64,000 nucleotides of DNA, taken from the NCBI GenBank assembly GCA_017854535.1, contig JAFMHL010000006.1, positions 40,649 through 104,648 on the forward strand, in the 5' to 3' direction. Shown piece after piece: positions 60,459 through 63,832 of this stretch. Position 1 is the stretch's first letter. The number at the start of each line of letters is the position of its first letter. The notes under the pieces are model-generated. The model was not told the DNA's origin. It made no database searches and worked only from the letters and a program-made list of their open reading frames with translations. The stretch comes from Nitratireductor sp. (GTDB lineage Bacteria; Pseudomonadota; Alphaproteobacteria; Rhizobiales; Rhizobiaceae). The translations under genes and the position numbers were made by a program.

Positions 60459-61439
60459 ATGTCCACGCCATTAATTGACAATTTGCAATATGCAAACTGT
60501 TCGGAAAAGATATTCCGCCAGATGCGCGAAGGCAATGTTGATGCTGTCCATGTGACCATCGCTTACCACGAAAACTTTCGTGAGGTTGTGCTCAACCTCG
60601 AGCAGTGGAACCGATGGTTCGAGCAATTTCCAGAGCTTATTTTTCGCGGACTTACAGGCGATGATGTGCGTAAAGCTCAAAGTGAGAAGCGCACGGCAAT
60701 TTTCTTCGGCTTTCAAAATCCATCACCAATTGAAGATGATATTGGCCTGATTGAGATTTTCCATACGCTCGGCATCCGCTTTATGCAATTGACCTATAAC
60801 AACCAGTCTTTACTGGCGACAGGATGTTATGAGAGCGAAGACATGGGTCTTACGCGTTTCGGTAAACAGGCGGTGCGCGAAATGAACCGCGTTGGTATGG
60901 TCATTGATATGAGCCATTCAGCTGACCGCTCAACGCTTGAAGCGATTGAGCATTCGTCGCGGCCAATTGCCATAACCCATGCCAACCCTCATTGGTGGCA
61001 TCCTGCCTTGAGAAACAAAAAAGATGAAATTCTGACAGCGTTGACGGGGAGAGGTGGCATGCTCGGCTTTTCCGTCTACCCCCATCACCTAAAAGACGGG
61101 TCAAATTGCACCCTTGAAGATTTTTGCGCTATGATCGCAAAGTCTGCAGAAAAATACGGAGCGCAAAATCTGGGCATTGGAACCGACCTATGCCAAGATC
61201 AACCCGACAGCATAGTGACTTGGATGCGTAATGGACGTTGGTCGAAAGAAACTGATTTTGGTGAAGGTTCCGCATCGGCTCCAGGTTTCCCGGAACAACC
61301 AGACTGGTTCCGTGATAACCGTGATTTTGGCACGTTGAAAAGCGGCCTTGGTGCCATAGGTTTTTCCAATGAAGAAGTGGATGGGATTATGGGGGACAAC
61401 TGGCTCCGTTTTTATGATCAATCCTTCGGTCCGCAATAA
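60459..61439 (+). CDS. Peptidase M19 (membrane dipeptidase) homologue lacking usual zinc ligands
   Basis: A 326-aa TIM-barrel protein of the M19 renal dipeptidase family: GLTRFGKQAVREMNRVGMVIDMSHSADRSTLEAI, ITHANPHWWHPALRNKKDEI, GIGTDL and IMGDNWLRF are clear. The N-terminal HxD pair that binds zinc in true dipeptidases is replaced (PLIDNLQYANCSEKIF), and the bridging Glu position reads GFQNPSP. Catalysis, if any, must differ. No signal peptide is seen, so it is cytoplasmic. GGGAG precedes the ATG. It heads a tight operon with two unknown genes. Similar M19 variants occur in dimethylglycine catabolism loci of Pseudomonas, from memory. Confidence 0.85.
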   Translation: MSTPLIDNLQYANCSEKIFRQMREGNVDAVHVTIAYHENFREVVLNLEQWNRWFEQFPELIFRGLTGDDVRKAQSEKRTAIFFGFQNPSPIEDDIGLIEIFHTLGIRFMQLTYNNQSLLATGCYESEDMGLTRFGKQAVREMNRVGMVIDMSHSADRSTLEAIEHSSRPIAITHANPHWWHPALRNKKDEILTALTGRGGMLGFSVYPHHLKDGSNCTLEDFCAMIAKSAEKYGAQNLGIGTDLCQDQPDSIVTWMRNGRWSKETDFGEGSASAPGFPEQPDWFRDNRDFGTLKSGLGAIGFSNEEVDGIMGDNWLRFYDQSFGPQ

Positions 61440-61451
61440 GGAGTTGGTAAT

Positions 61452-63155
61452 TTGGCTCTCGCACTAGACACTGATCTTTTGTATCCGCAATCCGAACTGC
61501 GCTCTCCTGATACGGTCATGAAACTGGAGCGTATGGGATCGTTCTTCCCAACGCGGTTGAGCTTCATGCGCTCAACCATTCGAAGGCTCGCGGAAGAAAA
61601 GTCAAATCTGGAATGCCCTGTTTGGGAAATGGATGATGACGGCTACGGCCGTGCCGTTTACACGCTGACCTATGGTGGGCATCGCTATTCGCTGGTGGCT
61701 TTTTCAACTCGTATCACAGAAGAGATGCGCACAGACCGTGTCATCGCGGAGGTCTGGGATACGGCTTACGTTTTATATGACGGCGTTCCAACGCGAGAAG
61801 AAATAGATAGACTTGAAGCCAACAGCCCACGCCAAGAAGCCGGCCGATTTTTGCCCTCAGACTTGGTGCTGAGCCGGGCCAACAAATCCGTTCGTCTTTT
61901 TGAGCATGTTACCGAACGTTTAGCTGCTGGTAAGCAACCTGATGAAAAAATGATCGGTGATATCGGATATTTAATGCGCACGACTGCCGTGTATGGCAAC
62001 GGTAAATTCGGCATCGCAGATCGCTCCAAAATTATGAACCGTCCCGGGCTGTCTGGTCCGTTTCAGGCTGAAATGCTGGCCGTTTGGCTCATTCGTAACT
62101 TTACCCATGATCTGGTCGAGTATGTTGCGCAAAAAAAGGCTCCCCAAACAGCCGTGCGCCTCGAAAAGCGGTTGAAGCGATATCTTGGCATCGGCAACTC
62201 AACAGGTCTGGGCATGGCACCGTTTTTGGTCAACCATCCTGTCCTGCTCAACAATTGGATGTCGGTCCGCGAGACCGCATTAGCCCGCGTCTGCGCGATT
62301 GAAAAGACTGACCAAAAAACCGCTGATCGTCTAATGGAATTATTCAATCGTGTATCGGTTCACTTGCAAGAATGGAACGTACCTGATCAACGCCAAATGC
62401 AGCGTATTGAAGTTTTGCGAACTGAATGGGAAGCCTTGGCAACCACGATCACATCTAACTGGTTTTTGCAGGAAAACAGTTTTGAGAAATTAGTAATGCT
62501 TTCACAATCGCAGTCGATGGAATGTCAGGAATTGGTCGTTGCTATGCTACTGGAACCCCATGGCGATATGGTCGACGGATTGACAGATTGTATGGCCAGT
62601 GAATATGAGCCGCGCCTTGAGCCGTCAATGACAATCAAAGAACTTCGCGCTGCCGTTGATCAGCATTATGACTGGGCCTTAACGGTCGATTTTTCAAAGC
62701 AGCAATCCAAGCAGCAATTTTGGTATGTGTCTGAGGAAAAACTGGAGCCGCGTTTGGGAGATCGTTTCAGCGAAGACGGAGCAGAACTTGAACTACCCCA
62801 CGACATAGCATTGTTGACCCAAAACCTTGTCGCAGACCTTGATGAATATTCGCAATCAACAAGTGTTGCGGAATTCTTATTAGTCCATTCAAGCCATCGC
62901 TATGTGGTAAAGCGGATCCAAACCACAAGCAGATTTGCCTATGCGGAAATAAGAGACAACCTTGTTGGCGATGCTTGCCTACCAATTGATATGTTGCGTT
63001 GCAAATTGTCCTTTTTTGGCGCATCAAAATTTGATCCAAAGTCCTCGAGATGGACCCGTATTACTATGTATCAGGGTGCACCATTAGCTGATGATCTTCA
63101 CGATAAAACGCGAGACAATGATGATTGGTGGCTTCCGGTTATGGAGCGCGCATAA
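61452..63155 (+). CDS. Conserved hypothetical protein, 567 aa
   Basis: I do not recognise a named domain. The protein is soluble, has no signal peptide, and reads as mostly helical and mixed, with conserved-looking blocks such as FFPTRLSFMRSTIRRL, RYLGIGNSTGLGMAPFLVNH and VKRIQTTSRFAYAEIRDN, and acidic/aromatic surroundings near the end (DNDDWWLPVME). The start is TTG, eight bases after GGAG that itself overlaps the M19 stop (TAAGGAG). Its stop overlaps the DUF3726 start (TAATG). The operon layout suggests the three products work together. Confidence 0.85.
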   Translation: MALALDTDLLYPQSELRSPDTVMKLERMGSFFPTRLSFMRSTIRRLAEEKSNLECPVWEMDDDGYGRAVYTLTYGGHRYSLVAFSTRITEEMRTDRVIAEVWDTAYVLYDGVPTREEIDRLEANSPRQEAGRFLPSDLVLSRANKSVRLFEHVTERLAAGKQPDEKMIGDIGYLMRTTAVYGNGKFGIADRSKIMNRPGLSGPFQAEMLAVWLIRNFTHDLVEYVAQKKAPQTAVRLEKRLKRYLGIGNSTGLGMAPFLVNHPVLLNNWMSVRETALARVCAIEKTDQKTADRLMELFNRVSVHLQEWNVPDQRQMQRIEVLRTEWEALATTITSNWFLQENSFEKLVMLSQSQSMECQELVVAMLLEPHGDMVDGLTDCMASEYEPRLEPSMTIKELRAAVDQHYDWALTVDFSKQQSKQQFWYVSEEKLEPRLGDRFSEDGAELELPHDIALLTQNLVADLDEYSQSTSVAEFLLVHSSHRYVVKRIQTTSRFAYAEIRDNLVGDACLPIDMLRCKLSFFGASKFDPKSSRWTRITMYQGAPLADDLHDKTRDNDDWWLPVMERA

Positions 63156-63832
63156 TGCGACGTTCTTTAAATGAAATCAGTGGCGAAATTCGCAAAGCTT
63201 CATTGGGTGCTGGCTTTCCGATGGGCCATGCGCAAGAGATATCCCATGCGGCAGCCTGGCTCATTTCAAGAAACCTGGATGGTGTAAAATCTGTTTTGAA
63301 TGGATTGCGAGGAGGTTTTAAACCCATAACACCGCCGCTGAAATTCAAGACTTCTCCTGCCGGAAAGAAACAATATTTTCTGCCAAATGTTCATGCGGCC
63401 AGTCATGGAGTAGGCCTTCGCGATATGATGATCGCTGATGCAGGGCAACACAGGTTTCAACTTGATCAAATTGATGTGCCGCTATTGTTAATTGGTTTGC
63501 TGGGCGCACAATGTGATGATCAGAACTATGAAATATGGTGGGGGCTGGAACATGAGCAGACGTTCAGCTTGCATCCAAATGTGTTCGAAAGTGAGCTCAA
63601 AGATTTTGCTTTAAAACTCGAAACACATAGATCTTTTGTAGGACTGGCGATGGTCGAACCAAGTCTTGTTGAAAACGAACAGCTTCAAAACATGTTTTCA
63701 GCGCCAGAAGGGTATTTGATAAACGAAATTTTGTGGCTTGAAATTAAGTCATTAGCTGCAAAAACCTATGTACCAGCCAGTGAGGCGTCGCGCACCAAAG
63801 GGGCAGGGGCAGCTATAAATGACAATGATTGA
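63155..63832 (+). CDS. DUF3726 domain-containing protein
   Basis: A 225-aa protein with the family's N-terminal signature (RRSLNEISGEIRKASLGAGFPMGHAQEISHAAAWL) and a mixed C-terminal region. DUF3726 has no known function. The ATG overlaps the stop of the 567-aa gene (TAATG), so translation is coupled; the track start ten codons upstream lies inside that gene. It closes the three-gene operon and is followed by 78 bp and tRNA-Ser. Confidence 0.8.
   Translation: MRRSLNEISGEIRKASLGAGFPMGHAQEISHAAAWLISRNLDGVKSVLNGLRGGFKPITPPLKFKTSPAGKKQYFLPNVHAASHGVGLRDMMIADAGQHRFQLDQIDVPLLLIGLLGAQCDDQNYEIWWGLEHEQTFSLHPNVFESELKDFALKLETHRSFVGLAMVEPSLVENEQLQNMFSAPEGYLINEILWLEIKSLAAKTYVPASEASRTKGAGAAINDND

Follow-up and report, generated by a model that had tools for sequence, protein, structure and literature searches.

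Canonical enzymes of the Peptidase M19 (membrane dipeptidase) family need an N-terminal His-x-Asp (HxD) motif and a bridging glutamate for their binuclear zinc site, which also has two later histidines as ligands. The Ldh_2 family includes malate, L-lactate and ureidoglycolate dehydrogenases and delta1-piperideine-2-carboxylate reductase. An operon for the catabolism of homarine (N-methylpicolinate), homABCDER, said to have been described by Ferrer-Gonzalez et al. in 2026, reportedly consists of five genes plus a LysR gene and is said to occur in SAR11/SAR116 and marine Alphaproteobacteria. The genes studied here possibly belong to this same operon, a likeness drawn from the reported gene count and the marine alphaproteobacterial range. 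In Pseudomonas and Vibrio, a pepD-hypothetical-dgcAB region is associated with dimethylglycine catabolism (PMC12093977). The comparison with that region is one of gene layout alone: both sets pair a predicted dipeptidase and an unknown gene with methylated-amine demethylation genes.

The locus is a three-gene operon of a Nitratireductor sp., and positions are those of the window, the whole 64,000-nucleotide stretch of DNA that was analysed. The 567-residue protein of the second gene is referred to as U567. The features of the operon are as follows.

60459..61439, + strand: M19-fold protein of 326 aa, non-canonical subtype (PF01244 match, E=2.2e-71)
60483..60491, + strand: Leu9-Gln10-Tyr11, replacing the M19 His-x-Asp metal ligands (alignment of 86 operon M19 proteins)
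60714..60716, + strand: Gln86, replacing the M19 bridging glutamate (Gln in 86/86 aligned)
60915..60917, + strand: His153 (DMSH), M19 histidine kept (85/86 aligned)
60978..60980, + strand: His174 (THAN), M19 histidine kept (86/86 aligned)
61440..61443, + strand: GGAG ribosome-binding site, 8 nt ahead of the U567 TTG start
61452..63155, + strand: U567, 567-aa protein of an unnamed family with a predicted orphan fold (TTG start; no Pfam family)
63155..63832, + strand: DUF3726 protein of 225 aa, apparently a degenerate Ldh_2-like partner of U567 (ATG start; PF12525, E=2.6e-11)
63770..63829, + strand: DUF3726 C-terminal tail VPASEASRTKGAGAAINDND, the best-conserved part of the family

The sequence-only reading had described three genes with coupling signals, TAAGGAG eight bases before a TTG start followed by a TAATG overlap, and both its coordinates and its sequence were exact. 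In the overlap, the TAA stop of U567 and the ATG start of the DUF3726 gene share the A at 63155. The trio stands alone in the window organism, with no transporter, aldehyde dehydrogenase or Ldh_2 gene nearby, and a tRNA-Ser gene lies 3′ of it at the contig end. None of the three proteins was assigned above cut-off by NCBIfam, and sigma-70 promoters and terminators predicted around the operon did not exceed those of shuffled sequence. A defence or phage origin was considered and dropped, there being no PADLOC or PHROGs match. A literature search for DUF3726 and PA5396 yielded no paper.

U567 was detected in 27 of the 199 genomes of the order and 53 of the 385 of the class, on 168 plasmids (one haloarchaeal), and at no fewer than 567 loci in a species-level genome collection, including Rhodobacteraceae, Rhizobiaceae, SAR116, Acidimicrobiales and Gammaproteobacteria. 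The module as a whole ranged over Alpha-, Gamma- and Betaproteobacteria, Acidimicrobiales and one haloarchaeon, and was also carried by streamlined, low-GC alphaproteobacterial genomes of 1.2–1.4 Mb. Phaeobacter inhibens and Ruegeria sp. TM1040 are among its hosts. Linkage was counted at 129 U567 loci, in which genes were called with a simple home-made codon-usage caller. A DUF3726-like gene lay directly 3′ of U567 on the same strand in 116 of the 127 loci with a downstream gene, overlapping U567 in 91 and within 60 bp of it in 20, and in two more loci the DUF3726 tail was found further downstream. On a plasmid of Mesorhizobium sp. 131-2-1 the two are a single 814-aa fusion (locus L144, 11956-14400) with the tail kept at the C-terminus. 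M19 was immediately 5′ of U567 in 76 of 128 loci and no more than eight genes away in 100 of 129, with no M19 gene near the other 29. Distance-matrix correlations, uncorrected for the shared ancestry of the genomes, were 0.71 for U567-DUF3726 (permutation maximum 0.16), 0.55 for M19-U567 (0.25) and 0.27 for M19-DUF3726 (0.27). The linkage, fusion and distance data thus identify the U567-DUF3726 pair as the core, with M19 as a frequent companion, and the retention of pair and trio across phyla excludes a chance arrangement. The genes are indeed kept together in relatives. A complex of all three proteins, as the sequence-only reading had supposed, gained no support, since fusion and near-obligate pairing were seen only for U567 and DUF3726.

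Neither U567 nor its 64 aligned relatives matched any Pfam family beyond chance. An AlphaFold2 model built from the 65 sequences was of high confidence (pLDDT 93.4, pTM 0.93), and Foldseek found no match for it in the PDB (best E 0.26, TM-scores low throughout) or among viral structures; a search of the PDB with the sequence profile was likewise negative. On this model, and against these two structure sets, the fold is apparently unsolved, although we do not claim it to be unique. Kinship between U567 and Ldh_2 was also considered, and the comparison was negative. About 70 residues, rich in Arg, Glu, Asn and Gly, were invariant in U567 across distant taxa, as expected of an enzyme. His262 was nearly invariant and no Cys was conserved above 80%. 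Two U567 copies contained an in-frame stop (G092:C1:1648129-1649808 and G403:C1:454991-456643), reflecting a pseudogene, a start-site effect or a sequencing error.

The DUF3726 protein of the window scored 43.7 bits against PF12525 (cut-off 22.1), a family matched by 29 of 30 U567 partners. Its predicted structure (pLDDT 78.5) returned only Ldh_2 proteins among the top 25 Foldseek matches (best E=8e-4, probability 1.00, TM-score 0.40 to the query), the common fold extending over about 140 residues. When the DUF3726 profile was compared with the operon Ldh_2 by hhalign, the N-terminal helices aligned over 59 columns (E=1e-4, with a probability of only 55). DUF3726 shares the fold of Ldh_2 and apparently its N-terminal helix pattern but is about 100 residues shorter, has a C-terminal tail of its own and lacks the family motifs: the catalytic SHG and the NAD-site motifs GTNP and GGYKG were present in 1, 0 and 0 of 30 DUF3726 proteins, compared with 22, 23 and 20 of 24 operon Ldh_2 proteins, and the lone SHG is probably due to chance. 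The haloarchaeal (Natrinema) U567 partner (locus L147, 11683-12636) was near full-length and Ldh_2-like, with no catalytic motifs and a DUF3726-like tail, and fell just under the PF02615 (Ldh_2) cut-off of 38.8 bits (36.2 bits, E=5e-9); from its sequence it looks like an evolutionary intermediate between Ldh_2 and DUF3726. The middle of DUF3726 was poorly conserved; conservation was highest in the last 20 residues, which carry the near-invariant pattern SRxxGAGAGLxDND. That this tail was modelled at low confidence in the protein alone is as expected for a docking tail. DUF3726 resembles a shortened Ldh_2 dehydrogenase from which the catalytic and NAD motifs have gone and in which a near-invariant C-terminal tail has been retained.

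The M19 protein of the window scored 241 bits against PF01244 (cut-off 26). It belongs to the same family as membrane dipeptidase and keeps both later histidine ligands, His153 and His174, but is without the canonical binuclear zinc ligands: the HxD segment reads DNLQY, and the residue at the bridging-glutamate position is Gln86. The same pattern, noted from the single sequence before, was found across all 86 aligned operon relatives. The consensus at the HxD segment was D-x-L-Q-Y, with L9 in 76 and Y11 in 74, six rows gapped at the N-terminus and none with H or D at those columns; the single exception at the His153 column was an aspartate; and Asp243 and many pocket-type residues were invariant or nearly so. 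Because the HxD motif and the glutamate were replaced in all 86, the change marks a fixed subtype and not a local loss. On this alignment, the operon M19 is a subtype with a fixed, different site, and with the canonical ligands missing it should not be named a membrane dipeptidase. The ligand loss is not unique to the operon, however, as the closest solved relative, PDB 2i5g (E=1e-51, nearly full length), likewise has Leu and Gln at the HxD and Glu positions in the printed alignment. This structure, labelled 'amidohydrolase', is one that we take to be of a Pseudomonas aeruginosa protein. The Nitratireductor genome also encodes a paralogous M19 protein of the canonical kind, which has DGHND close to the N-terminus.

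In the recurrent full layout, a divergent LysR gene was followed by genes for aldehyde dehydrogenase, M19, U567, DUF3726 and Ldh_2, together with a ProXWV or BCCT importer, and Pot-type importers were also among the recurrent neighbours. Aldehyde dehydrogenase was near 41 and Ldh_2 near 35 of the 129 U567 loci. In two streamlined genomes of 1.4 Mb the genes for ProXWV, aldehyde dehydrogenase, M19, U567 and DUF3726 were consecutive, and Ldh_2 adjoined them; two others of 1.2-1.3 Mb had the trio only, and on many Roseobacter chromosomes the trio was alone, with no transporter, aldehyde dehydrogenase or Ldh_2 nearby. The operon Ldh_2 was closest to the delta1-piperideine-2-carboxylate reductase 1wtj (E=3e-57), of the cyclic-imine reductase type, and the operon aldehyde dehydrogenase was closest to succinate-semialdehyde and betaine/aminoaldehyde dehydrogenases. 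A SoxA-type N-methyl-amino-acid oxidase was found in the flank of seven loci from several divergent subgroups. The window's own genome has, on contig C107 (locus L206, 922-10667), a corrinoid-dependent demethylation cluster in which an Ldh_2 protein with 74% identity to that of the operon in a relative (L033) is encoded beside an MtgC-like corrinoid protein (below MtgC cut-offs), an MTHFR relative, a methyltetrahydrofolate-corrinoid methyltransferase, a RACo activator and a LysR protein; an MttB-family protein is encoded on the same contig. Taken together, importers, dehydrogenases, LysR and N-methyl-amino-acid oxidases suggest that the module serves to break down N-methylated amines taken up from outside. 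This is in agreement with the earlier suggestion of amine catabolism, whereas the repair role offered beside it found no support. The importer types near the module varied (Pro, BCCT, Pot, TRAP and liv), and agmatinase or importers of the polyamine type were present at some loci, so different clades may use different substrates.

The reading we favour, with a probability of roughly 0.6, is that the operon encodes the central part of a module that breaks down imported N-methylated amines of the betaine type, in which U567-DUF3726 would act as a two-subunit enzyme and M19 as a C-N hydrolase. We infer the U567-DUF3726 complex, as well as each reaction and the order of steps below, from the gene linkage, the fusion, the fold predictions, the motif losses and the neighbours. 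U567 would provide the active site of an obligate two-subunit enzyme. DUF3726, derived from Ldh_2 and no longer catalytic, would stabilise U567, with the C-terminal tail inserted into or beside its active site. This enzyme would make the key first attack on the N-methylated substrate, by ring reduction or opening or by C-N activation. A C-N bond of the product (amide, formamide or imine) would then be hydrolysed by the M19 variant at its remodelled, non-binuclear site. Where present, the aldehyde dehydrogenase, as an oxidation step, and the Ldh_2 imine reductase would lead to an N-methyl amino acid, which would be demethylated by a heterotetrameric SoxA-type N-methyl-amino-acid oxidase. More tentatively, and at distinctly less than even odds, U567-DUF3726 may be an enzyme of a never-solved fold whose targets are N-methylated or quaternary amines, N-methylpyridinium rings perhaps among them, and the tail of its dead-Ldh_2-derived subunit would reach into the active site to assist. 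The main interest lies with U567 and its degenerate dehydrogenase partner, less with the M19 protein. A large Pfam-less family of apparently unsolved fold, with a dedicated pseudo-dehydrogenase partner, is widespread in marine and soil bacteria, among them some with streamlined genomes, in which few accessory genes are retained. If the module breaks down betaine-type osmolytes, genes that had so far been anonymous would be tied to the cycling of dissolved organic nitrogen, an abundant pool, and the reactions would represent new chemistry.

A specific form of this explanation, not quite an even bet, is that the module is homABCDER itself, the five enzymes being aldehyde dehydrogenase, M19, U567, DUF3726 and Ldh_2, and the LysR protein HomR. 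With similar reserve, the pathway may be pictured as ring opening by U567-DUF3726, removal of the N-formyl carbon by M19, and conversion to N-methylglutamate by aldehyde dehydrogenase and Ldh_2. The commonest full layout, seen in several genomes, has the reported count of five genes plus LysR, the module occurs in SAR116 and in low-GC alphaproteobacterial genomes of 1.2-1.4 Mb (after ProXWV in two), the Ldh_2 resembles cyclic-imine reductases, and genes for N-methyl-amino-acid oxidases are found close by. Consistent with this, N-methylglutamate dehydrogenase participates in homarine catabolism according to a 2026 paper, which cites the homarine pathway paper. Many hosts of the module are soil rhizobia, however, and the agmatinase genes or polyamine importers at some loci also argue against homarine as the substrate. 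The window has just three genes of the layout of five enzymes plus LysR. Co-occurrence with N-methylglutamate dehydrogenase was rejected as a test, being uninformative with SoxA/MgdC-like genes in 192 of the 199 genomes of the order. If the module is the homarine operon, its pathway has been described before, and the novelty here lies in the U567 fold and in the origin and tail of DUF3726.

A Sinorhizobium pSymB relative is surrounded by Pot-type importers, RidA-like proteins and a class III aminotransferase, and agmatinase-like genes occur at a few loci (all by eye). These would fit a module that acts on polyamines or guanidino amines and has betaine neighbours only incidentally. Such a module is unlikely, as most of these loci belong to distant members (28-32% identity) or to single clades, and close relatives more often have neighbours of the ProXWV/BCCT, corrinoid and demethylation kinds. 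The loss of three metal ligands in all operon M19 proteins and of the Ldh_2 motifs in DUF3726 could instead indicate that M19 serves here as a scaffold or pseudo-enzyme and that U567-DUF3726 has a regulatory or chaperone role; the conservation of His153, His174, Asp243 and the pocket-type residues in M19, and of the invariant residues of U567, makes this more doubtful still. Finally, the trio follows, by 112 bp and on the same strand, an assimilatory sulfate reduction cluster (siroheme synthase, sulfite reductase, cysH and a DUF934-sized gene), but it is highly improbable that the operon is part of that cluster, since the relatives that were inspected had no neighbours of this kind.

Some loci had other neighbours. 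At Roseobacter loci such as L196, L067 and L084, the trio, its M19 gene sometimes uncalled, occupied a conserved chromosomal spot beside truA with no amine genes near, together with genes resembling ycjX and those for a DUF697 protein and TamA/TamB-type proteins. In L120 (6670-7920) and L128, a gene resembling, by eye only, that of an M24-type DMSP lyase (DddP) was directly 5′ of M19-U567-DUF3726-Ldh_2. In a single clade (L039, L042 and L045), U567 and a short DUF3726 were followed by a SAM carboxyl methyltransferase (PF03492).
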